Notes under the pieces: generated by a model
Seen by the model: only the letters and a program-made list of their open reading frames with translations
Database searches by the model: none
What the model was told of the DNA's origin: nothing
Position numbers and translations under genes: made by a program
DNA from: a virus
IMG/VR virus record: IMGVR_UViG_3300036985_000573
Coordinates: 1 to 24,476 of that record
Direction: 5' to 3' (one strand)
Length of the DNA stretch: 24,476 nucleotides
In this document: one piece after another, positions 109 through 24,476 of the stretch
How the letters are laid out: each line of letters opens with the position of its first letter
Position numbering within the stretch: position 1 is the stretch's first letter

Positions 109-966
109 CTAGAACGTGATCGACCCACTGGCCGTGAATTTGTAGACGCGAAAGCCCCCAGCCACCGTAATAGTCGGGCTACCAGTGGTTGCGGTTGCTG
201 GTGCGAATTGGTCGGAGTATCGTAGGATTACTATGCCGGAGCCGCCTGCGCCGCCGATACGACCTGATTGGTCGCCTCCGCCTCCACCACCCCCACCCGT
301 ATTTGCGGAGCCTGCTGTTCCCGCAGTAGTCCCGCCTGCTCCACCACCACCGACTCCACCAAGTCCAACTGTTCCATCTGACAGGCGAGCGCCTCCCCCA
401 CCACCGCCAGCGTATGTAGTTACGGTGCCAGATATTAAGGCCGCGATACCAGCGCCGCCATTGCCAGCTACAAGCGTTGTCCCCTTTAGGCCAACAGTTC
501 CTGCACCACCTCCGCCACCTCCTGTATATGCCGGAACATAAGGGCCAGCACCGCCTCCTGCATTACCTTGTCCTGTAGTTCCACTACCCGCAGCACCCTC
601 GCCACCATAGGTTCCATTTCCTCCGCCAGAGCCTCCCGCTAATCCTGCTGTTGTTCCGCCCCCGCCTCCACCCCCTGCGGCTGAGACTGTTCCAAATACT
701 GATGCGCTTCCAGTTGCGCCATTAACATCGGCTGTTGCTGCACCGCCACCACCAACAGTGACTGTGATCGCTGCTCCTGCCGCTACACCAAGGAGTCCTG
801 ATAGCAAACCGCCGCCGCCACCGCCGCCTCCATACTGCCCACCACCCCCACCACCCCCCGCAACCACCAGATACTCCACATTCTGCGGAGGCACGTTAGG
901 CCACAGCCCTGCCTTGATCGCAGCCTGAGCTTGCGCCATTGTCCAGATGCCGCTGAACTGTCCCAC
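109..966 (-). CDS. Polyglycine adhesin-like tail protein, paralog A
   Basis: This 285-residue protein has a short N-terminal cap (GIWTMAQAQAAIKAGLWP), then the family signature VEYLVVAGGGGGGG near residue 31. A long low-complexity body of GGGGGG tracts follows, separated by short variable segments, and it ends with GGSGIVILRYSD and a small module ending SGSITF. Polyglycine proteins of this kind sit on phage tail tips; in T-even phages such as S16 the gp38 adhesin builds stacked polyglycine II helices whose loops contact the receptor. Similarity here is in composition and layout, so receptor binding is inferred. The GTG start directly follows the stop TAA of the 113-residue gene and has GAGGTG six bases upstream; an ATG at residue 10 is the alternative. 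It shares the segment ISGTVTTYAGGGGGG with paralog C. Confidence 0.85.
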   Translation of the reverse strand: MGQFSGIWTMAQAQAAIKAGLWPNVPPQNVEYLVVAGGGGGGGQYGGGGGGGGLLSGLLGVAAGAAITVTVGGGGAATADVNGATGSASVFGTVSAAGGGGGGGTTAGLAGGSGGGNGTYGGEGAAGSGTTGQGNAGGGAGPYVPAYTGGGGGGAGTVGLKGTTLVAGNGGAGIAALISGTVTTYAGGGGGGARLSDGTVGLGGVGGGGAGGTTAGTAGSANTGGGGGGGGDQSGRIGGAGGSGIVILRYSDQFAPATATTGSPTITVAGGFRVYKFTASGSITF

Positions 967-1308
967 TTAGACCACCTCTGTCCAAGTCAGACTAGGCTCG
1001 TCCCATACATACCGCTTGCCATCAGTAGGCATGGGTGTAGGGGATTCCCACAAGTAAGTGTCGTCGTTCTTCGTCCAGCTTGGGTATGGCTGTGGTGCGT
1101 AGAAGCCGATGCCGTCGTACAAGAAGCCTTTGCCGGGGTAGTTCTTGCGAACTGGTGTGCCACCGTCCTTGTGTACGCCACCGGCAGTGTTGTAGCTGCA
1201 CTGGACGAACTTAGCCGGGTCGCCGTGCATACCAGCATCGATAACGTCTTGATCGATGACCAAGACCTGAGTGACTATTCCATTTTCAACGTAAGCGAAG
1301 TGCGCCAT
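967..1308 (-). CDS. Conserved phage tail-associated protein, MAHFA family
   Basis: This 113-residue protein begins MAHFAYVENGIVTQVLVID and carries CSYNTAGGVHKDGG near the middle, then FYAPQPYPSW and GKRYVWDE close to the C-terminus. I recognise this arrangement from short conserved proteins found beside fibre genes in cyanophages and many environmental phages; their molecular role has not been settled to my knowledge. The aromatic, proline-rich C-terminal half suggests a compact beta structural protein. The ATG has a strong ribosome site (AAGGAAACAATC before it). It is inserted between paralogs B and A, breaking the otherwise continuous run of polyglycine genes, which suggests it works with them at the tail tip. 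Confidence 0.82.
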   Translation of the reverse strand: MAHFAYVENGIVTQVLVIDQDVIDAGMHGDPAKFVQCSYNTAGGVHKDGGTPVRKNYPGKGFLYDGIGFYAPQPYPSWTKNDDTYLWESPTPMPTDGKRYVWDEPSLTWTEVV

Positions 1309-1318
1309 GATTGTTTCC

Positions 1319-2146
1319 TTAAAAAGTGATTGAACCGGATGAAGTCCATGTGTAGGCTTGATAGCCGTTTGCGATTGAGACTTGGGGTGAGCCTGTTGTG
1401 GCTGTGGGTGCGGATTGGCTTGAGGGGTAACGGAGGATTACGATGCCGGAGCCACCTGCTCCTGATGTAGCCGTATGTGAGCCGCCTCCACCGGAACCAC
1501 TATTCGCAGAAGCTGAGGACCCGGAAGCAGATGCGTCACCGCCTCCCGCAGAACCTATGCCGTTAGTGGTAGTCCCTGCGCCTCCACCTCCACCAGAGAA
1601 GAAGCGCCTAGTCCCATCGATGGTGGAGCAAGTCCCTGTGCCGCCATTACCGCCAGCAGTTGCAGTACCTGCAACTCCTACTGAGCCACTACCGCCACCA
1701 CCCCCAGCACCGGCAGATGTTGAGAATGATGCGCCACCGTCATACCCCTGACCAGCAGTAGCTGTACCATAAGCTGTTTGCACTCCACTGACTGCGGAAC
1801 TACCTGCGGCTGAACCGACATTGCTCTGTGTTGTGTAGCTTCCGCCCCCGCCCCTCTTTGCAGTTATGGAACTGAACACAGAGTCGTTGCCATCAATTCC
1901 AATATCGTTGCCGACAGTCTTAGCTGCACCACCGGCACCAATGGTTACAGTAAGAGCAGACCCGGTAGCGATGGCTAGTAACCCTTGGAGCAATCCACCC
2001 GCACCTCCACCGCCCCCCATACGATCTGCACTTTGACCAGACCCGCCCGACCCACCCCCCGCCACCACAAGGTATTCCACGGAAGTCGGAGCGCCGGAGA
2101 GGGGATTAAATGTAGGGCTTATGAAGCCCCCGAGTCTGTTGCTCAT
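1319..2146 (-). CDS. Polyglycine adhesin-like tail protein, paralog B
   Basis: This 275-residue protein has the family layout: VEYLVVAGGGSGG near residue 24, a glycine- and serine-rich body, then GGSGIVILRYPSS and an ending SGSITF. I choose the ATG at 2146 because it overlaps the stop of paralog C as ATGA, and because its MSNRL start resembles the MSRRD start of paralog D; the frame is open up to an ATG at 2173, but that start would overlap C by 31 bases without a ribosome site. Its body contains CSTIDGTRRFFSGGGGG, shared with D and absent from A and C. Serine partly replaces glycine here (SASGSSASANSGSGG), giving it the least pure polyglycine body of the four. A tail-tip adhesin role is inferred. 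Confidence 0.83.
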   Translation of the reverse strand: MSNRLGGFISPTFNPLSGAPTSVEYLVVAGGGSGGSGQSADRMGGGGGAGGLLQGLLAIATGSALTVTIGAGGAAKTVGNDIGIDGNDSVFSSITAKRGGGGSYTTQSNVGSAAGSSAVSGVQTAYGTATAGQGYDGGASFSTSAGAGGGGGSGSVGVAGTATAGGNGGTGTCSTIDGTRRFFSGGGGGAGTTTNGIGSAGGGDASASGSSASANSGSGGGGSHTATSGAGGSGIVILRYPSSQSAPTATTGSPQVSIANGYQAYTWTSSGSITF

Positions 2147-3000
2147 AGTGTTATCGAGCCTGAACTCGTCCATTTATAGACCCGCCAGCCACCTGCTGTG
2201 GTCACTGTGGGCGAGCCTGTTGTTGATGCTGCAAGAGCGAAGGTGTCGGAGTATCGTAGGATTACTATGCCGGAGCCGCCTGAAGCGTTTGTAACCCCAG
2301 TGGTTAGATAGTCAGAACTACCCCCAGCGCCCCCTCCTGTATTCGCAGTTCCAGAAGTACCAGCTAGTTGCGTTGCAGGTTTGCCGATAGCGCCAGCACC
2401 ACCACCTCCGACTCCACCCGTACCAGCAACAGTCCCTGCCAGATTTGCTCCGCCACCACCACCACCTCCGGCGTAGGGTGTAACAGTTCCTGAAATTGAA
2501 GAGGCTATACCAGCACCACCGTTGCCACATGCCGGGTTAACACCTGCAATGCCCACTGTTCCTGCCCCACCGCCTCCGCCGCCAAAGTTTGATATCGAGC
2601 CTCCGCCAGTATTCCCCTGACCAGTCGTACCAGCAGCGCCAGATAGAGTTCCTGACCAGCCGCCGCCACCACCCCCACTTCCACCGACCAAAACTTCACC
2701 CCCACCACCAGTTGCAGTGATGCCGCTGAAAACCGAATTGTTGCCGTTATTGGCAGTAGTCGAGGCAGAGCCTGCGCCACCAGCACCGATAGTCACAGTT
2801 AAGGCTGATCCCGCTGCAATGCCAAGTAAACCTGCTAGCAGTCCACCCCCGCCTGCCCCACCACTGCGATTAGCACACGCTCCCCCACCCCCAGCCACGA
2901 CAAGGTACTCAACCCATCCAGTCTTAGCGTCAGCATTCCCCCACGCCTTGTCACGCAGGGCACGGAGATGATTGTTTAATGTGAAAATTCCAGAAGGCAT
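2143..3000 (-). CDS. Polyglycine adhesin-like tail protein, paralog C
   Basis: This 285-residue protein has a cap (MPSGIFTLNNHLRALRDKAW), VEYLVVAGGGG near residue 30, a body of glycine tracts, then GGSGIVILRYSDTF and an ending SGSITL. The ATG at 3000 has an excellent ribosome site (AGGAGAACAAT). It pairs with A by the shared ISGTVTPYAGGGGGG and GGVGGGGAGA segments; a 38-base stretch is identical between the two genes (211-248 and 2245-2282). Caps of A and C begin with a GI(W/F)T pattern quite unlike those of B and D. A tail-tip adhesin role is inferred. Confidence 0.85.
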   Translation of the reverse strand: MPSGIFTLNNHLRALRDKAWGNADAKTGWVEYLVVAGGGGACANRSGGAGGGGLLAGLLGIAAGSALTVTIGAGGAGSASTTANNGNNSVFSGITATGGGGEVLVGGSGGGGGGWSGTLSGAAGTTGQGNTGGGSISNFGGGGGGAGTVGIAGVNPACGNGGAGIASSISGTVTPYAGGGGGGGANLAGTVAGTGGVGGGGAGAIGKPATQLAGTSGTANTGGGAGGSSDYLTTGVTNASGGSGIVILRYSDTFALAASTTGSPTVTTAGGWRVYKWTSSGSITL

Positions 3001-3009
3001 ATTGTTCTC

Positions 3010-3879
3010 CTAGAATGTGATTGAACCGCTGGCAGTGAAGACGTACACACGCCACATGCCAGAGATGTAAGTTGATGGACTACCCGTTGTGGCTGCTGCG
3101 GGAGAGTAGGTTGCTGGGTAGCGTAGGATTACTATGCCGCTGCCGCCTGCCGCTGATGTGGTTTTTGTAGAGCCGTAGTCAGAGCTTCCTCCAGCCCCTC
3201 CACCTGTATTTGCGGCACCCGCAGCGCCTGCAACCTGTACGGTAGTTGATCCCTTTGCGCCATCCCCACCGCCACCAGCACCACCGATACCTGCCCTAGC
3301 GGGAGCAGTAGAGGCTCCTCCTCCACCACCTCCAGCAAAGAAGCGTCTAGTCCCGTCTATGGTTGAGCAAATGCCTGTACCACCATCCCCAGCAGGTAGT
3401 CCAGCACTACCAGCAGCTATGCCTACGCTACCAGCGCCACCACCACCACCAGAGCCATGAGAGCTTGTCCCCGGACTTCCGGTGCCACCAGCATAGCCCT
3501 GCCCCGCTGTTCCAGTGCCTCCAGCAAAGCCGTTAGCTCCACCACCACCACCAGAGCCACCATTTCGCCCAGCAACCCCCTCCATATTTCCAGCGCCACC
3601 ACCCGTTGCGGTGATAGATGAAAATACAGAGTTATTTCCGTCTTGTCCTACTGCTGCTGCATCTGTTGTGCCAGCACCGCCAGCGCCAACGGTTACTGTA
3701 AGTGCAGCACCAATAGCAACAGATAGGATGCCTTGCTGCAACCCCCCTGCGCCCCCTCCACCTTGTTGACCTACTGCGCCACAAGATGCACCCCCCGCCA
3801 CCACAAGGTATTCCACCTGCGTAGGAGCCCCGTAGTAGGGACTGGTGATGGAGCCGGTTAGGGCGTCACGTCTGCTCAC
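3010..3879 (-). CDS. Polyglycine adhesin-like tail protein, paralog D
   Basis: This 289-residue protein is the first of the four polyglycine paralogs to be transcribed. A short cap (MSRRDALTGSITSPYYGAP) leads to VEYLVVAGG near residue 22, a body of GGGG tracts, GGSGIVILRYPATY and an ending SGSITF. The GTG start overlaps the stop of the upstream 127-residue gene as GTGA, which implies translational coupling. It carries CSTIDGTRRFFAGGGGG, the marker shared with paralog B. Family and likely tail-tip location are as for A, inferred from composition and context. Confidence 0.84.
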   Translation of the reverse strand: MSRRDALTGSITSPYYGAPTQVEYLVVAGGASCGAVGQQGGGGAGGLQQGILSVAIGAALTVTVGAGGAGTTDAAAVGQDGNNSVFSSITATGGGAGNMEGVAGRNGGSGGGGGANGFAGGTGTAGQGYAGGTGSPGTSSHGSGGGGGAGSVGIAAGSAGLPAGDGGTGICSTIDGTRRFFAGGGGGGASTAPARAGIGGAGGGGDGAKGSTTVQVAGAAGAANTGGGAGGSSDYGSTKTTSAAGGSGIVILRYPATYSPAAATTGSPSTYISGMWRVYVFTASGSITF

Positions 3880-14429: not shown

Positions 14430-14840
14430 TCAGATGAATGCTCGGATCGCCAGTGGGTCGCCTTTGACGCTCCCAATGATGTCGAGGTCGTTGAAAATAA
14501 CAAATAGCGCGGATTCGCCATTTGGCAAGGGCACCTCCCAGCGATCACCTCCGTATTTGGCCACACGCACATAGTCGCCCGGTTTGCACCAGTCGCCTTC
14601 GGGCCATGCCGCCATGGTATTGCGATTCTTGAAGGCCAGCGGCCCAACAGAGACCACTTTACCAACTTGGGTATTCCACTTTTCGGTGTCTTTTGTACCT
14701 GTGTCTAGGTAGATACCAGATGCAGTGCGATTCTTTGCAGACCGAATTTGCACCAGAACACGGCTCCCGAAAGGCTGAATTCCAGCTTCTGCAGCTGGGA
14801 AAGCCTCCGCCAATGCGTTCTCAGAGGTCATTGTCACCAT
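14430..14840 (-). CDS. Phage GroES-like co-chaperonin
   Basis: The 136-residue product matches the Cpn10 layout: FGSRVLVQIRSAKNRTASGI (compare the GroES start PLHDRVIVKR), a mobile-loop region with GIYLDTGTKD, then TQVGKVVSVGPLAF, GDWCKPGDYVRVAKYGGDRW and ALFVIFNDLDIIGSV at the end. GroES caps GroEL during folding; phage versions (T4 gp31 is the known example) replace the host cap to fold capsid protein. I choose the ATG at 14840, four bases after GAGGAG; the ATG at 14831 (MTSEN) is an alternative. An insertion of roughly 15 residues (KNRNTMAAWPEGDWC) separates the usual dome segments. No groEL lies in the window, so the host chaperonin is presumably used. Confidence 0.87.
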   Translation of the reverse strand: MVTMTSENALAEAFPAAEAGIQPFGSRVLVQIRSAKNRTASGIYLDTGTKDTEKWNTQVGKVVSVGPLAFKNRNTMAAWPEGDWCKPGDYVRVAKYGGDRWEVPLPNGESALFVIFNDLDIIGSVKGDPLAIRAFI

Positions 14841-15018
14841 TCTTCTCCTCGTTAAGTAGTGAAAGAAGTACGTTAATAGAAGCCTCGTAACCACTTACGA
14901 CGCCTACTCGGAGCCCGTACTCAAAGCTATCTCGATTCTGTGGACGCTTCAAAGCATCCACGGCATACTGCGCCTGATCGGCCTTAAGCTGATTCAGGAG
15001 TCTAGTCGCAAGATTCAC
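14821..15018 (-). CDS. Small helical protein, unknown
   Basis: This 65-residue protein starts at a GTG that overlaps the stop of the 34-codon gene as GTGA and ends inside the GroES-like gene start. It contains QAQYAVDALKRPQNRDSFEY and GYEASINVLLSLLNEEKNGD, two amphipathic helices. The tyrosine- and arginine-rich sequence looks constrained. It overlaps the GroES-like frame by 20 bases, suggesting coupled translation. The function is unknown; context suggests virion assembly. Confidence 0.78.
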   Translation of the reverse strand: MNLATRLLNQLKADQAQYAVDALKRPQNRDSFEYGLRVGVVSGYEASINVLLSLLNEEKNGDNDL

Positions 15019-15119
15019 GCTGGAGTCTTAGGACCAGATTGGGGGATGGGCTGGTTTACGGGCTTGCCTTGAGCCAGGCGTTTGTGCTGTGGAAGCAGTG
15101 CGTCGTCAGTTGCGTACAT
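15015..15119 (-). CDS. 34-residue small protein, unknown
   Basis: A short frame begins at the ATG complementary to 15117-15119 and ends at TGA 15015. The product starts MYATDDALLPQHKRLAQGKP and ends in a proline-rich tail. It has a strong ribosome site (AGAAAGGA, about six bases before ATG), and its stop overlaps the GTG of the next gene as GTGA. The ribosome site, coupling and strand make it a credible gene despite its size. No function can be inferred. Confidence 0.65.
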   Translation of the reverse strand: MYATDDALLPQHKRLAQGKPVNQPIPQSGPKTPA

Positions 15120-15141
15120 GGTGTTTCCTTTCTAGGGGTTG

Positions 15142-15197
15142 GGGACTATGGATTCGGGACTATGGATTCGGGACTATGGATTCGGGACTATGGATTC
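15142..15197. repeat. Four tandem 14-bp repeats at the portal stop codon
   Basis: The unit GGGACTATGGATTC is repeated exactly four times. On the minus strand it reads GAATCCATAGTCCC, so the first copy encodes the last portal residues and its TAG stop, and three further copies fill the gap before the 34-codon gene. Because the stop is in the first copy, changes in copy number would not alter the portal. Confidence 0.92.
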
Positions 15198-17701
15198 GGG
15201 TTAATGCCTGTTCCAGTGCTGACTGCTACCTTATCGCCACTGGCAATCTCTGCTGCTGCCAAGAGTTTAGCAGTGTCATTATCTTCAGTATTCATCTGAT
15301 AGCGAACTTGGTCACTGTTCTCAGTCCGTTGAGTCTCTGCCTGCTGCCGCAGTTGCTCTTGTTGGAAGGCTTCCTGAGATTTACGAGCCTCAGACTCAGT
15401 TTTCTGCTGAGCCGCTTGGGCTTTCTGCTGAGCATCCTGCTGCATCCGTTGCTGATCTAAGCCCAAACGGGCTTGATCGGACTGAGCACGCTGTTGGAGA
15501 GCCTGGCCTTGCACTTGGGCATTGATCTGAGCCACTTGCATCGAGTTATCTGGCGGCATTGGCGGCTGAGGCTTGTATTTCTGAGCTTCTTGGTCGATTT
15601 GAGCCAGTTCTTGGGCGAATGCGCCGAGTTGCTGTTCAATAAACTGCTGGACTTGCAGGATTACCTTGACCTGTGGGCCCGATTCCTCTTCAATCAAGTT
15701 ATCTTTCTGTGCTTTGTCCACTGCTTCGTGAGATTCGACCAAGTAGTAATTCAAAACGTGGTCCCGTAAGTGAAGAGCCATCGGATACAGATAGGTTTTG
15801 ATGATTGCCGGGTTAGCTCCGAACAAAGGAGACTTCAAGAACGGCAAATGAGTCATCAAATGAGCCATGTGATCCTGGCGAGGGAGCACATACAAGGGCC
15901 TACCCATCGCAGCAGCCACATTCTCGCTCACGGGATCCATATCCTCAGTGCCTGGCTTGGATTGAAGCACGTCTGTGTCGGTCAAACGGAGACTGCGGAG
16001 GAACATATCCTCCACTTTGCGTTGGTCGTATAGTTGAGGCAGGGCCGCGGCTCTTTGAACGATAGCCTGGACTTGGGCAAATCTCTGAGTCTCGCTAAAG
16101 ATAGCGGGATCAGAGACTGGAACAATGTCCATCGGGCCATCAAAGTCCGACGGTGTGACGTCCAGGTCATCGCCTGCTTCAGCAATATCGTCTTCCGTCA
16201 GGTAAGCACTGTTGATCCGATGCAGAATCTTGAACACTCGGCTCATGGAGTTGTGCAAGCGGGAGTGGATGGAGGAGAACACCACCATTCCCTGCTCAAT
16301 CAAGGCCATCGTAGTGCCAACTGGCTGATTCACATTCTGATCGGAAAGCTTCTCAAAGCTCGTTTGAATCACGCCCTTGCCTGCATCGACCAAGAAACCG
16401 AGTAACTGGAAGAGTGTAGGAGAGGGACCGTTGAACGGAAGAGCCATTGCCAGCTTCCGAACGTCGTCGATGAGTGCCCCGCCTTCCAACTCTACCACCT
16501 CTGTAGGTTGGACATTGATAGTCTGGCCGTTGGGTCCACCCTTGAGCTTGAGCAGCGTGGGGATGTTCTGGATATGAGCCGAATCAAGGAGGGCACGGAG
16601 TGAGCCTGTAGCAGCACCGCTCAGTCCTCCGATCATGTGAGTCAGTCCAATAGGATACGCGCCGCGCCAAGGCACGAACGGGAACTCCACAACCCAGTCC
16701 AGTTCTCTCCGACGATCGTCTGCCTCTTCCCAGTTTCGGTAGAGGGCAAGAGCCTTGCCGCTCGACTTGTCAATGCTCAGGATGTAGGGCTCCATTCCAT
16801 CCTCAAAATCCAAGTGGGTGTAGATTTCGAAGACTGTACGAAGCCCATCTTCGTTGTAGTAGTCATCTTCCCGGCCTTCGATCTTGTCATTGGCCTTGGT
16901 TGCTTTGCTGTATTCCGGCTCACCCGGGGGACCAATGTCCACGTCCATGTACATGCCACTCTTTACACGACGTTGGTATTCCTGTTCCGTGATGTACTGA
17001 ACGTGGGTCTTGCGTTCAGCGGAGTAAAAGTTGGTAGCAGCGAAGGGGAGGTAGATGTCGTCAATCGCAATGAACTCAGCCGAAGGCCTGCGATACTGGG
17101 GATTCCAGAGCATCTTTAAGTACTGAGCACCACCGAGAGGCAACTGCGTGCTGAGTTGCTCAAGTTCACCCCGAAACTCAGGCATCTGTTCAGTTGTTTG
17201 CCAGTTCATAAACTGGACTTTTCTATCAGCCTTCTCGACTTTGGCCTTGTCGCGTTCGCCAATTAACTTGCTGCGCACCGGACCACTCGGCGGAAAGATC
17301 TCACGCATGACCCGAGCACTAAAGTCCACACATGCTTCCACCAGCATCGGGTGGACTACCTTGTTGGCCCCGGAGAACTGTGCCCCTCCGGGCGCGTCGT
17401 CACCTAGTCCTGTGCGACGAAGGCCCTCTTCATAGAGTTTGTCGCGTTTAGCCCGGGCCTTCTTGTCCTTCTCGATCTTGTCAAGCAAGTCAGAGACTGC
17501 TTTCCCCAATGCCTTCTGGTCAACTTCGTCGACGATATTAGCGAAGTGTTTGAGATTTTTCTTCTCGTCCTTGTCATCGGCGATTCGGACCTTGGCGCCA
17601 CCGTCCTCGGTGTCTTCAGTGTTGGTATCCTCGTCGTCAAGTTCAATGCGTTCGTCTTCGCTCTCATTGATCGAGAGGTCGTGGTTCTTGGCTTCAGACA
17701 T
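15188..17701 (-). CDS. Portal protein, P22-like
   Basis: This 837-residue protein forms the dodecameric vertex ring through which DNA is packaged and ejected. The length fits the large podoviral portals. After an acidic N-terminus, residues of about 90-270 (EGLRRTGLGDDAPGGAQFSG, VMREIFPPSGPVRSKL, FMNWQTTEQMPEFRGEL, FIAIDDIYLPFAATNFYSAE) show the P22-type clip and wing pattern. Later segments include FVPWRGAYPIGLTHMIGGL and GAATGSLRALLDSAHI. The last 150 residues form a glutamine- and alanine-rich coiled coil, like the helical barrel reaching into the P22 head. The ATG overlaps the previous gene by eight bases. The stop lies in the first of four 14-base repeats. Confidence 0.88.
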   Translation of the reverse strand: MSEAKNHDLSINESEDERIELDDEDTNTEDTEDGGAKVRIADDKDEKKNLKHFANIVDEVDQKALGKAVSDLLDKIEKDKKARAKRDKLYEEGLRRTGLGDDAPGGAQFSGANKVVHPMLVEACVDFSARVMREIFPPSGPVRSKLIGERDKAKVEKADRKVQFMNWQTTEQMPEFRGELEQLSTQLPLGGAQYLKMLWNPQYRRPSAEFIAIDDIYLPFAATNFYSAERKTHVQYITEQEYQRRVKSGMYMDVDIGPPGEPEYSKATKANDKIEGREDDYYNEDGLRTVFEIYTHLDFEDGMEPYILSIDKSSGKALALYRNWEEADDRRRELDWVVEFPFVPWRGAYPIGLTHMIGGLSGAATGSLRALLDSAHIQNIPTLLKLKGGPNGQTINVQPTEVVELEGGALIDDVRKLAMALPFNGPSPTLFQLLGFLVDAGKGVIQTSFEKLSDQNVNQPVGTTMALIEQGMVVFSSIHSRLHNSMSRVFKILHRINSAYLTEDDIAEAGDDLDVTPSDFDGPMDIVPVSDPAIFSETQRFAQVQAIVQRAAALPQLYDQRKVEDMFLRSLRLTDTDVLQSKPGTEDMDPVSENVAAAMGRPLYVLPRQDHMAHLMTHLPFLKSPLFGANPAIIKTYLYPMALHLRDHVLNYYLVESHEAVDKAQKDNLIEEESGPQVKVILQVQQFIEQQLGAFAQELAQIDQEAQKYKPQPPMPPDNSMQVAQINAQVQGQALQQRAQSDQARLGLDQQRMQQDAQQKAQAAQQKTESEARKSQEAFQQEQLRQQAETQRTENSDQVRYQMNTEDNDTAKLLAAAEIASGDKVAVSTGTGINPNP

Positions 17702-19877: not shown

Positions 19878-21449
19878 TCACGCAGCATAGGGGTTGACTC
19901 GTTCGAGCCGTTTGACAGGCAAGTCCTCAATGTCTTTAGCCCGAGGCAACTCGAACCACCCCTCGTTCTTAAGGAAGATAATAGCCTGGGAGAATGTGTC
20001 CACATAGTCATCATGTTGTGCTACGGGAAATTTGCTCAGTTGAGCTAGGAATTGCGTCGCTCCGCCTACAGCGTGTCCTGGATTCTTCGTCGATTCGGGT
20101 ATCCATAATAGCCCCAATTCCAAAGTAGGTGCAGCGGAATGTGCGCGACTGATCTTGTCCGCATTGCCGGGATTATAGCCTACCGCAGGCACATTGGCCA
20201 ATCTCAAATCTTGTAATAAACTCTGACCCGAGGCCTTCGCTTCAACCAACACTCTGTCCGGCCTCTTCGGCCTGTTCCAAGGATTCGCCTTACTCGAAGC
20301 TCCATACTCCGTTGTCCATGACCTAATCGCTCTCTTCCGTAGGTCTGGGTAACTCAAGTACTCATCCCACGCATCAATCAACATCGCGTTCCGCACGCCC
20401 TTGTATGTGAACATCCCCCACACAGTGCACGCAGTTGGATCCCCTGTGCTCTTCTCAGTAAACGCACAGTCGTATGACTGCAATATGTACTCGAACACAG
20501 GCAAGCCTCCGACGGGCCACAACTTGAAGAACGCAGTCTTCAATATCCCACCTTCCACAGGCGATGGATCCTGTTGCAACTGTCCGGACGAACCGTACGT
20601 CCCCAGCGCCTGCTTCAGCACTCGGATCTCTTCCGCCCCGAACCGATCAGGACAGATCAGTTCACCCTTTACTTGCCTAGGGTCATAGTCCCCAAGCACT
20701 GTCTTTCTATACTTCCCGTCCCACTCAGCGGGTATACAAATATGTTCCCAGCCTTTGATGTCCTGGAGTATGTGCCCACTAATATCCTGCTCATGTAGCC
20801 TCTGCATCACTACAACCATCGCGTCCGTCTTGGGATTGTTCAACCGCGTGCTCCACACTTGGTCAAACCATTGCAGCGCTGACTCCCGCATCGCATCGCT
20901 CTGTGCGTCCTGCGCTCCGTGGGGATCGTCCAATATCAGCCTTGATCCCCCTTCCCCCGTCGCCGTACCCCCCACCGACGTAGCAATCCGATAGCCGGTC
21001 TTGTCATTCTCGAATCGTTGCTTAGCGTTCTGGTCCCCCGCCATCGCAAACATGTGGCCCCATCGCTCCTGATACCAAGGCGACTGCACCAACCTCCGCG
21101 CCTTCAAGTTATCCCGAGTAGACAGAGCCCCTGAATACGAAGCAGCTAGGAACTTCTGCTCTGGCTGCGCTATCCATTCCCACATTGGCCACATCACACT
21201 AACAATAGTCGATTTACTATGCCTTGGGGGAATGTTAATCAGTAACCGCCTAATCTCTCCGCTCGATACCGCCTCCAGGTGTTCACAGATCGCCTCGATA
21301 TGCCACGACGGCACGAACGGTATCCCTGGCTCGACGGCGTCCCAACTCTGTTTCACAAACTCATAGAGCGAGGCTTCAGCTCTCCGCCTCAGTTGCTCTT
21401 TAGCCAGCAATTCCCGGAGTACTTCCGGGGTGGCGTGGTTCATGTTCAT
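19878..21449 (-). CDS. terL: Terminase large subunit
   Basis: This 523-residue packaging motor has an N-terminal ATPase with a variant Walker A (PPRHSKST, residues 74-81), Walker B LILDDP (171-176) and the coupling segment MVVVMQRLHEQD (211-222). The C-terminal RNase H-like nuclease shows SYDCAF with Asp327, LVEAKASG with Glu403, and HDDYVDTF with Asp480, Asp481 and Asp484, which are the expected acidic metal-binding positions. All key residues look intact, so it should be active. It cuts concatemers and pumps DNA through the portal. Two in-frame ATGs (21449 and 21443) are possible and neither has a strong ribosome site. It follows the small subunit after a 36-base gap made of tandem repeats. 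Confidence 0.93.
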   Translation of the reverse strand: MNMNHATPEVLRELLAKEQLRRRAEASLYEFVKQSWDAVEPGIPFVPSWHIEAICEHLEAVSSGEIRRLLINIPPRHSKSTIVSVMWPMWEWIAQPEQKFLAASYSGALSTRDNLKARRLVQSPWYQERWGHMFAMAGDQNAKQRFENDKTGYRIATSVGGTATGEGGSRLILDDPHGAQDAQSDAMRESALQWFDQVWSTRLNNPKTDAMVVVMQRLHEQDISGHILQDIKGWEHICIPAEWDGKYRKTVLGDYDPRQVKGELICPDRFGAEEIRVLKQALGTYGSSGQLQQDPSPVEGGILKTAFFKLWPVGGLPVFEYILQSYDCAFTEKSTGDPTACTVWGMFTYKGVRNAMLIDAWDEYLSYPDLRKRAIRSWTTEYGASSKANPWNRPKRPDRVLVEAKASGQSLLQDLRLANVPAVGYNPGNADKISRAHSAAPTLELGLLWIPESTKNPGHAVGGATQFLAQLSKFPVAQHDDYVDTFSQAIIFLKNEGWFELPRAKDIEDLPVKRLERVNPYAA

Positions 21450-21453
21450 GGAG

Positions 21454-21494
21454 TCTTAGAGCTTTGTATCTTAGAGCTTTGTATCTTAGAGCTT
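21454..21494. repeat. Tandem 15-bp repeats at the terS stop codon
   Basis: The unit TCTTAGAGCTTTGTA occurs twice in full and once in part (21454-21468, 21469-21483, 21484-21494). On the minus strand each copy begins AAGCTCTAAGATAC, so the first carries the last terS codons and TAA stop, and the rest form the gap before terL. This is the same arrangement as the portal-end array but with an unrelated unit. Confidence 0.88.
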
Positions 21495-22253
21495 CGGTAT
21501 CACAAACCCATACTCCTGCTCTAACTCCGACAGAGCGGGAGGTGGAGGGGGCGGCACATGTAGGGGAGCAGGACGTTTGACAGTCGCAGGGCGTTTGACA
21601 GTCGCGTGCTCCTTAACGGGAACATCCTCCACGTCATTCGTCTCCAGCTCAAGAATGTCCCCCGACTCCTGGGGCGTGGCCTTGGACAGCAACTTCTGCA
21701 TATTGTCCAACTCCACATCAGACAAGCCGCGGAAGTTCATAGCCGAGACCTGAATCGGTCCACCGTTCGCTCCCGTGTGCTCCGTCAAGAGCTTATCCCC
21801 ATACAGTCTCGGCAGCATCTTAGCCAGGATCCACTTCCGCGTTTCCACTCTCAGCCTCGACCGCTGGACAACTTCCGAGTTCATCCGCACCATCCCGTGC
21901 TCATCCACGAAGGTATCCTCATCGGCCCTGTCTGCAATATCCAGCAGTTCATCCGCCAGCAACCGATACCCAGTGTCTCTAGCCTGTGAGTATACCCTCG
22001 CTAAGTCCTGATCGTCATATACCCACCTCAGAAACTGAGACGGGCTGATAACCCCGATCGCTGCCGTGGCCATCCGACAAGCCTTATGCAGAGGATGTCC
22101 CTCAGACAGCAAGGGCAAAATGAATTCCGCAATATCTCGACGGTATGGGGAATTGGGGAGTGTAGGTCTCAACCTCGTAGGGTCAAGCACTTTACGATCC
22201 GGGCCTTGAGCAGAGCGGAGTTGTCCATTGGGCATAGGTGGCGAATATACCAC
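21486..22253 (-). CDS. terS: Terminase small subunit
   Basis: This 255-residue protein likely recognises viral DNA and loads the large subunit. A helical N-terminal half (RRDIAEFILPLLSEGHPLHK) precedes a typical small-terminase core, SQARDTGYRLLADELLDIAD and RVETRKWILAKMLPRLYGDK (residues of about 88-155). The C-terminus is low complexity and ends in a proline tract; it holds a duplicated hexapeptide ATVKRP, mirrored by an 18-base tandem duplication near 21571-21608. The GTG start at 22253 has GGGAG eight bases upstream; the ATG at codon 7 is an alternative. It is first in the structural operon, downstream of the duplicated promoter-like elements. Confidence 0.88.
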   Translation of the reverse strand: MVYSPPMPNGQLRSAQGPDRKVLDPTRLRPTLPNSPYRRDIAEFILPLLSEGHPLHKACRMATAAIGVISPSQFLRWVYDDQDLARVYSQARDTGYRLLADELLDIADRADEDTFVDEHGMVRMNSEVVQRSRLRVETRKWILAKMLPRLYGDKLLTEHTGANGGPIQVSAMNFRGLSDVELDNMQKLLSKATPQESGDILELETNDVEDVPVKEHATVKRPATVKRPAPLHVPPPPPPALSELEQEYGFVIPKL

Positions 22254-22420: not shown

Positions 22421-22463
22421 CTTTTAATATGTAGTCCCCTAATTTTTGAAAACGGGTTAGCGA
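22421..22463 (-). promoter_or_regulatory. Promoter-like element, copy 1
   Basis: Read on the minus strand this gives TTTTCA (22452-22447), a 17-base spacer and TATTAA (22429-22424), pointing toward terS. It is one of two copies spaced 64 bases apart. Each box matches the sigma70 consensus at 4 of 6 positions, so recognition may need an activator or a phage factor. Confidence 0.45.
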
Positions 22464-22484: not shown

Positions 22485-22527
22485 CTTTTAATATGTAGTC
22501 TCATAATCTTTGAAAACTGGCTAGCGA
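22485..22527 (-). promoter_or_regulatory. Promoter-like element, copy 2
   Basis: On the minus strand TTTTCA (22516-22511) and TATTAA (22493-22488) are again 17 bases apart. Over 43 bases it differs from copy 1 at 5 positions, all outside the two boxes and most of them in the spacer or upstream of the 35 box. Conservation of the boxes is what a functional duplicated promoter would show. Confidence 0.45.
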
Positions 22528-22715: not shown

Positions 22716-22813
22716 CAGAGACTGAGTCGCTGCCTCGGTGACGCGGGGCAGTGCGTCACCGAGGGCATGAGGTCAGGGAGTCGGTGACGCGGGGCAGTGC
22801 GTCACCGACGAAC

Positions 22814-22842
22814 GACTATATAACTAAAACGCATAAAGAACT
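22814..22842. other. AT-rich stretch within the iteron array
   Basis: Immediately after the second 28-base palindrome comes ACTATATAACTAAAACGCAT and similar sequence, distinctly AT-rich against GC-rich flanks. AT-rich segments beside iterons are the usual DNA-unwinding element of replication origins, and this is the main reason to consider an origin. No clear DnaA box was seen. Confidence 0.4.
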
Positions 22843-22999
22843 CGGTTGATTCTCGGTGCGGCGGGCCGCGTCACCGATCCGCGTCACCGAGAAACCGAGA
22901 CATCCCGCTATAGGCTCAGGGCCCAATCTCGGTGACGCAAAACTCGGTGACTCGGGGGGGGCGTCCCTAGGGGGAGGGAGACCGCGTCACCGACCGAGA

Positions 23000-23081
23000 A
23001 CGCTTACGCTGCCTCGGGCTCCACTTCATGCTGAAGACATGAAGGTGGAAGCCACGAAGCAGGCGTCACGTTTGCAAGCGT
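23000..23081. repeat. 80-nt imperfect hairpin inside the array
   Basis: The left arm 23000-23030 reads ACGCTT, ACG, then CTGCCTCGGGCTCCACTTCATG with small gaps. The right arm 23038-23081 can pair back to it: reverse-complemented it gives ACGCTT, ACG and CTGCTTCGTGGCTTCC followed by ACCTTCATG. The apical CTTCATG-7-CATGAAG is perfect. It might be a structured RNA, a single-strand origin or a degenerate mobile repeat. Confidence 0.55.
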
Positions 23082-23176
23082 ACCAAAATTGAATTCTCGG
23101 TGACGCGGGCCGAGTCACCGACCCCGCGTCACCGAGGTTTTTGTTGTCACCGAGCCATTTTGTCATCGACTCGTTT

Positions 23177-23192: not shown

Positions 23193-23340
23193 CCTGTGAG
23201 ACTCAGATTGACCGGCAATTGTCTCGTCGGAGTCCATTTCCCTCCGATCAAGGACTATCCGGCTATTAGGTATCCAGTGCCAACCTCGTAGCCATTGAGC
23301 CTTTTGAGCCCCTAACCCGAATATTTCACACAAATGAGTC

Positions 23341-23393
23341 GGCAGTCCTTGGTTGTCATTGGTATCTGACGCCAAGTACAACCAAGGACTGCC
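23341..23393. repeat. Long inverted repeat just before the transposase start
   Basis: GGCAGTCCTTGGTTGT (23341-23356) pairs perfectly with ACAACCAAGGACTGCC (23378-23393). The stem extends inward to 22 bases per arm with two mismatches and a 9-base loop. It ends two bases before the transposase ATG. Hairpins over the translation start of insertion-sequence genes commonly suppress expression driven by transcription from outside; that role is inferred here. Confidence 0.8.
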
Positions 23394-23394
23394 A

Positions 23395-24159
23395 ATGCCA
23401 AACTGTACCGAAGAATCTGGAACAAGCAAGATTAAATTTGGACAGCTTGGCCGACGCGTCGTGGAAGGTTGTTTTGATGGCGGCAGCATGACCAGTGATG
23501 CAGGGGTCATGCTACTGGGGGCGACCGATCGCAAACTCGGTCTGATACAGGCAGCAGCACGTTGCATCACTGATCCGCGCAGCCCACTGCTCATCAAGCA
23601 CGGCGTTGTCGATATGCTACGCCAGCGCGTCTATGGACTGGCTCTTAGCTGGGAAGACCTCAACGACCACAGCACTCTGCGCCAGGACGTGGCCATGCAA
23701 ACGGCTGTCGGTGTTGATCGCGAGGTGGCAAGCGCCCCCACGCTGTGCCGTCTGGAGAAATGGGCAGATCGCTCAAGCGCGCTACGGCTGCACCAGGTGT
23801 TGATCGAACAATTCATCGCCAGCTTCAAAGACGCACCGCAGGAACTGGTGCTCGACTTCGATGCCACCGACAACCCGCTGTACGGTCAGCAAGAGGGCCG
23901 CTTCTTTCACGGCTACTACGACAGCTACTGCTATTTGCCCCTGTACGTGTTCTGCGGCCAGCAGTTGTTGTGTGCCTACCTGCGCCCCAGCCGCATCGAT
24001 GACACCAAACAGGCCCGCAACCCAAGCCGGGGTGGTGTAGTTGCGGCCCAACTGGCCCGATTGCCAGCCTCTGACAGCTCCACACCTGCAAAACGACCAG
24101 TTCAACCCCATTCAGCGCAGAAATCAGCACCAATCAGGTCATACAGTGCAGTAGCGTGA
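23395..24159 (+). pseudogene. IS1380-family transposase, truncated
   Basis: The frame encodes 254 residues. The first 206 or so match the IS1380 transposase layout: CFDGGSMTSDAGVMLLGATD (residues 26-45), QRVYGLALSWEDLNDHSTLR, LVLDFDATDNPLYGQQEGRF (151-170, with the first catalytic Asp) and FHGYYDSYCYLPLYVFCGQQ, then LRPSRIDD. After about base 24013 the sequence no longer resembles the family, and the later part with the remaining DDE acids is absent. Full-length members have more than 400 residues, so this is inactive. I choose the ATG at 23395; the frame is open to a TTG at 23353, but that lies in the hairpin. It is the only plus-strand gene and is unrelated to the phage module. Confidence 0.85.
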
Positions 24160-24476
24160 AATATGCGGGCTAAGCCGAGGGGGCAATGTTCAGCCGATGA
24201 AGTAGCAGTTGTATACCGTTAAATAAGTGAGTCTAGCTCAAATAAAACGTAACAGTTTCTATATTCCTAAAAGTCATCAAGCCGCCTATATGCCGAAATC
24301 CACATAAAAACATGACTCTTTAAACAGACCGTATCGTTTTAAACGCTCATAGCTAACTTATTTAAGTTCCTAAGGCCAATGCCTTAGGGGTCAAGGGATC
24401 GCGGCGTCTAGGGCCCATTCCGGAGGGCACTAGTTTGGTGCGGAATGTAGCAGACTGTTACATTTGTTTTCTCCTG
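24160..24476. other. Non-coding stretch at the right edge
   Basis: No gene or RNA is recognised. The first 200 bases are AT-rich compared with the phage module. Two small dyads lie in it: CCTAAGGC-4-GCCTTAGG (24369-24388, perfect) and CATTCCG with CGGAATG (24416-24422 and 24441-24447). These could be a terminator-like structure and part of a mobile-element end, but neither can be assigned. Confidence 0.6.

Follow-up and report, generated by a model that had tools for sequence, protein, structure and literature searches.

A dense array of short repeats in both orientations, located next to the terminase genes of a freshwater phage, most probably serves as a DNA replication origin with iterons, comparable to those of SaPIs, PICIs and P4, as judged by comparison with related phages. 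The window, that is, the whole 24,476-base stretch of DNA analyzed here, is a fragment of a tailed phage genome that includes genes for the terminase, portal and capsid. The record lacks the primase-helicase gene of this phage, so that the key link between initiator and repeats rests on analogy. Origins of uncultivated phages are seldom known, and the comparison yields a simple rule for finding them in a large group of freshwater phages, namely, a dense two-orientation array on the 3' side of a primase-helicase gene and before terS.

The repeat array and its surroundings

The main features of the window are as follows.

19878..21449, minus strand: terL, large terminase subunit, the query used for finding relatives
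21486..22253, minus strand: terS, small terminase subunit of the Sf6 type, with the array on its 5' side, as in the relatives
22735..22762: first 28-base inverted repeat, TCGGTGACGC-GGGGCAGT-GCGTCACCGA (repeat search)
22781..22808: second, identical 28-base inverted repeat, 46 bases downstream (repeat search)
22811..22854: AT-rich stretch (at most 68% AT per 40 bases) that separates the first two repeat pairs from the remaining copies (composition), a candidate melting site
22853..22890: repeat copies at 22853 (plus, two mismatches), 22868 (minus) and 22881 (minus)
22929..22993: repeat copies at 22929 (plus), 22944 (plus, one mismatch) and 22984 (minus)
23006..23066: long hairpin within the array (folding), which may correspond to the hairpins in the middle of the arrays of relatives
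23097..23153: repeat copies at 23097 (plus), 23112 (minus, one mismatch), 23126 (minus) and 23144 (minus, two mismatches)
23311..24174, plus strand: IS1380-family element with an internal deletion that retains the inverted repeats of both ends; in the relatives, this location holds the 3' end of the gene for the primase-helicase

The original prediction, made from the letters alone, described a dense two-orientation array of about 13 copies of a 10-mer. The array is real: TCGGTGACGC occurs in 10 exact copies (four on the plus and six on the minus strand) and two copies with one mismatch between positions 22735 and 23135, with two further two-mismatch copies at 22853 and 23144. The count of about 13 fits the 8-mer TCGGTGAC, of which there are 13 copies. 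No exact copy of TCGGTGACGC is found elsewhere in the 24,476-base record, for which the chance expectation is 0.07 copies (0.001 per 420 bases). Across 2000 dinucleotide shuffles of the 500-base segment, no 10-mer reached more than 3 copies, compared to the 10 observed, and the best 10-mer in any of the remaining 500-base stretches of the record has at most 4. The two 28-base elements reported as palindromes are indeed identical and 46 bases apart but are not full palindromes, each consisting of 10-base inverted arms that flank an asymmetric 8-base center.

The other parts of the described layout were recovered as well. The AT-rich block is present, if modest (68% AT in 40 bases near 22815 vs 39% for the segment), and so is the hairpin at approximately 23006 to 23066 (RNA folding energy of −31.9 kcal/mol, z = −4.3; DNA z = −4.9); an Rfam search gave no match. 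The segment is gene-free except for a single overlapping open reading frame of 78 amino acids that is built mostly from the repeats. As the prediction also noted, the arrangement differs from classical same-direction iterons: instead of direct repeats at even intervals, the orientation is mixed and the spacings range from 13 to 113 bases. The window array is a cluster of short repeats in non-coding DNA, as are the iteron origins of the SaPI/PICI/P4 type.

The late genes run leftward from the array, in the order terS, terL, portal, GroES-like protein and major capsid protein. PICIs lack a full virion gene set, whereas this record encodes a terminase, a portal and a capsid; the element is therefore no PICI, though its proposed origin would work like a PICI origin. 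To the right, the record ends with the IS1380 element followed by a further 300 bases. Such an element is unusual in a phage; its left part is 82% identical to ISPosp7 of Polaromonas, and no target duplication was seen around it. The element may mark a join to host DNA or an assembly chimera. The statement that a binding protein gene is not in the window proved correct; past the defective IS1380 element, the record stops short of the position where a primase gene is expected. A frame of 49 residues between the array and the element shows no resemblance to anything in the fetched loci of relatives, and searches with the window DNA gave no match in phages and only the IS1380 element in plasmids. 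Between the array and terS, there are two AT-rich direct repeats of 43 bases (22421-22463 and 22485-22527; 88% identical, 64 bases apart), both of which carry, on the minus strand, GACTACATATTAAAAG, perhaps a phage promoter.

Arrays of related phages and the primase C-terminus

A TerL search of IMG/VR yielded 80 close relatives (76-80% identical), some with records of 54-60 kb. TCGGTGACGC is practically absent from related phages. According to the original prediction, such absence would argue against an origin; this rule would have misled because dozens of related freshwater phages (TerL 71-83% identical) have, at this position, an equivalent array with another motif. These arrays, each with 5-12 short repeats that face either way, occupy the interval between the primase-helicase gene and terS. 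They usually lie directly 3' of the former, often tens of bases past its stop codon and often around an AT-rich stretch or a hairpin, and directly 5' of the latter, at times with at least one intervening gene. The motifs found in the TerL relatives are CGAACGATTA, GAGGTTCGA, GAGGATCGA/GAGGATAGA, AAGGTTACAAG, ACCCGGCGA, ACACGGTTA and AGCCCCCTA, and additional records contributed CCTGTGCC/TCCTGTGC, ATTAACGGGTA, CCTAAATAAG and GACTGATC; in the 54-60 kb records, CGAACGATTA is confined to the array. Several close relatives (e.g., L169, L182, L162, L355 and L361) have no clear array, so that these arrays are common but not universal, and none was seen in the approximately 550 bases before terS in the nearest isolates, the Roseobacter phages CRP-901/902. 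In five near-complete relatives, the extremes of GC skew, a check proposed in the prediction, fall away from the array. In the group with D5-type primases (L195, L188, L204 and L167), a gene for a VRR-NUC-like nuclease of 121-163 amino acids, identified by eye, is located between the array and terS. The TerS N-termini among L148-L223 are of very different types, either Sf6-like or rich in PGSGR, vs a TerL steady at 76-80% identity.

The gene beyond the array usually encodes a primase-helicase with the domain architecture PrimPol-PriCT_2-AAA_25, PriCT_2-DUF5906 (D5-like) or Toprim-AAA_25, and the motif differs from one type or subtype to the next. G007 shares the virion genes of G001-G005 but has another replication module and another motif. 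One case is a natural recombinant, L213. The body of its primase is 92-94% similar to that of L204 (94% over the 162 residues preceding the last 58), whereas the last 58 residues are 98% similar to those of L195 and only 43% to those of L204; the array is of the L195 type. Similarly, L368 combines an L195-like C-terminus with GGTTCGA repeats, and L362 another C-terminus with GGTTCT repeats. When pairs of genomes with the same and with different motifs were compared across 27 genomes, the AUC was 0.97 for the last 60 residues of the primase, 0.94 for the rest of the primase and 0.84 for TerS, with motif classes assigned by us from the array sequences and relatedness of the genomes ignored. On the same terms, the last 60 residues separated the pairs perfectly in the D5-type group (AUC of 1.0 vs 0.84 for the rest of the primase and 0.71 for TerS) but had no advantage in the PrimPol group (0.78 vs 0.81 for the rest of the primase). 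The motif tracks the primase C-terminus rather than terS, and both this association and the L213 recombinant support, at the sequence level, a C-terminal domain of the initiator as the likely seat of iteron specificity. Natural recombinants of this kind point to the part of the protein that likely reads the repeats.

Because the array adjoins the 3' end of the primase gene, a single crossover moves both, and co-inheritance accordingly signifies linkage, not binding. In L356, the primase gene and the array are 5 kb apart, separated by a cargo segment, and the motif still matches the primase. For CGAACGATTA arrays that were first seen without upstream genes (L223 and also G026), upstream extension reached a PrimPol-AAA homolog, as predicted. 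A blind scan of 2.9 million viral contigs for the CGAACGATTA pair returned 46 stretches, almost all from this phage group, about 40 of which contain a cluster of at least three copies; the pair in reversed order gave no match. Where the neighbors of these stretches could be reached, they are mostly the terS/terL genes of the group and the gene for the PrimPol primase, the latter at 52-100% identity; L379 combines the array and a primase of 72% identity with a TerL that is only 41% identical. The structure model of the C-terminus for the D5 group is too poor for use (pLDDT of 43), and the model for the PrimPol group (pLDDT of 70.7) has a helix-helix-strand-strand order, for which the PDB matches are not significant (best E of 0.07) but include several winged-helix regulators; a winged helix is not firmly predicted by modeling.

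The window motif itself provides a further hint at the type of initiator. Arrays of TCGGTGAC are located directly 3' of a D5-type primase gene (Pfam DUF5906, D5_N) in unrelated satellite-like elements of 5-19 kb from bacterial isolates (L327, L334 and L338), which, by analogy, fits a D5-type initiator for the phage in the window. The exact paired motif of the window occurs at six unrelated places in viral contigs, and only as scattered pairs, never in such an array, in bacterial genomes. Small elements from bacterial isolates with a D5-type primase (L327, L334 and L338-L346), often with a TTCGGTGACA array, look like phage satellites; in L327, genes for an HNH protein and the small and large terminase subunits follow.

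Proposed function and alternative readings

Under the origin model, the primase-helicase encoded just upstream of the array, beyond the end of the record, would bind the TCGGTGACGC repeats via its C-terminal DNA-binding domain. This protein would assemble on at least two groups of repeats, melt the AT-rich stretch between them and prime synthesis, perhaps with the help of the hairpin. The comparison of relatives favors the phage origin among the candidates listed in the original prediction and disfavors a mobile palindrome cluster or a host repeat.

An unlikely alternative is a multi-site operator, where an early regulator would act through the repeats on a promoter of terS and the late genes. 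Sequences that look like promoters precede terS at a short distance, both in relatives, where they were spotted by eye, and at 22272-22244 of the window, the 43-base AT-rich direct repeats lie between the window array and terS, and an origin can double as an operator. However, 10-14 sites together with an AT-rich stretch and a hairpin exceed the needs of an operator, and neither the location 3' of the primase gene nor the covariation with the primase C-terminus would be expected.

We similarly give little credence to a pac site in which the repeats are read by the product of the neighboring terS gene, although, in most members of the group, terS is the gene that directly follows the array, which lies on its 5' side, and TerS proteins bind DNA near their own gene in known phages. 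L188 and L206 have 100% identical TerS proteins but different arrays (their primase C-termini are 48% identical); conversely, the TerS proteins of L177, L154 and L223/L356 are only 40-47% identical, with very different N-termini, and the motif is the same. The match between motif and primase across the 5-kb cargo segment of L356 also argues against this reading. TerS had been our first idea for the repeat reader and was dropped because the site sequence does not follow the TerS sequence.

A centromere of the kind used by plasmid prophages for partition, with a ParB-like protein as its reader, is very improbable: parS clusters do resemble clustered inverted repeats, but no Par genes were recognized among the inspected genes of relatives (a non-exhaustive inspection), and the motif covaries with the primase. 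Least probable of all is a host or mobile palindrome repeat that arrived with the adjoining IS1380 element, given that the array is outside the IS ends, that the paired-motif matches in bacterial genomes are scattered, never in such an array, and that IS-free relatives have arrays at the same place.

Among known systems, the preferred reading, an iteron origin, has its closest parallel in SaPIs and PICIs, in which the C-terminal domain of Rep reads iterons just 3' of the rep gene (PMC7581432; PMC6092414). In PICI origins, an AT-rich region on the 3' side of the initiator gene is always flanked by two sets of iterons, and the authors of that study knew of no other replicon built in this way (PMC6092414). 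In the related phages, too, short iterons form at least two groups on the two sides of an AT-rich region, immediately 3' of a primase-helicase gene and sometimes with terS next; the two sets are clear in the D5-type relatives, whereas the AT-rich stretch of the window is modest. Unlike SaPIs and PICIs, these phages encode all virion proteins as well as a DNA polymerase of their own, the repeats are in both orientations, often with a mid-array hairpin, some initiators are of the PrimPol-AAA_25 or Toprim-AAA_25 type, and two genomes encode a free-standing candidate reader. P4 also pairs a primase-helicase with origin repeats. Its primase is of the Toprim type, and there is a second site, crr, whereas no second repeat cluster was found in the 54-60 kb records of relatives. 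According to a passage in PMC4234260, the C-terminal winged helix of the P4 alpha primase-helicase binds the origin repeats. In pRN1 and phage BIP-1/BPP-1, a stem-loop 3' of the PrimPol-helicase gene is a proposed origin (PMC4234260); the gene order is alike, but no origin-like iterons were found there, whereas the phages here have both iterons and hairpin. RSF1010 oriV, as outlined in the same source, combines iterons for one protein with priming hairpins for another (PMC4234260), but employs three separate proteins.

Free-standing domain copies, hairpins and further observations

In L208 and L360, the PrimPol primase has the conserved C-terminus but the motif is other than CGAACGATTA. Both genomes, and only these two in the set, encode beside the array a separate protein that resembles the primase C-terminus (170 amino acids in L208 and 135 in L360); no free-standing paralog thus occurs in a genome of the set whose motif agrees with that of its close relatives. 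The primases of L208 and L372 are 91% identical and their hairpins match at 56 of 57 bases, yet the arrays consist of ACACGGTTA and CGAACGATTA, respectively, which suggests that the repeats can change even as hairpin and enzyme remain together; L372 also has repeats of intermediate appearance, such as TAATCGTGTGG. In an alignment of 11 hairpins, 7 of the 10 predicted pairs have altered bases on either side and can still form, a count to be taken as supporting evidence only because four of the rows were chosen by eye.

It is conceivable, albeit doubtful, that the origin code of this abundant group of phages changes in a rapid and modular manner, with the primase C-terminus and the repeats swapped or rewritten jointly, the hairpin traveling with the enzyme body and a free-standing domain copy accompanying a new code in L208 and L360. 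If so, the driver could be escape from origin-recognizing parasites or defenses, comparable, with the roles reversed, to Vibrio PLE/ICP1, where an origin-directed nuclease of phage ICP1 selects changed PLE iterons (PMC8263062). In any case, these phages offer a ready system for the study of joint change of initiator and origin, and combine an origin layout of the satellite type with complete sets of virion genes.

Three further features of the window lie outside the replication locus. The minus strand at 109-3879 encodes four consecutive paralogous glycine-rich proteins of 284-289 amino acids (VEYLVVAGGGG ... GSGIVILRY), probably tail or receptor-binding proteins. Tandem GGATTACGGATTC-like repeats, seen in the translated open reading frames only, are present at 15089-15299, near the 3' end of the large portal-type open reading frame. 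Between this frame and the capsid genes, the minus strand at 14430-14894 encodes a GroES-like co-chaperonin (Cpn10) of the phage.
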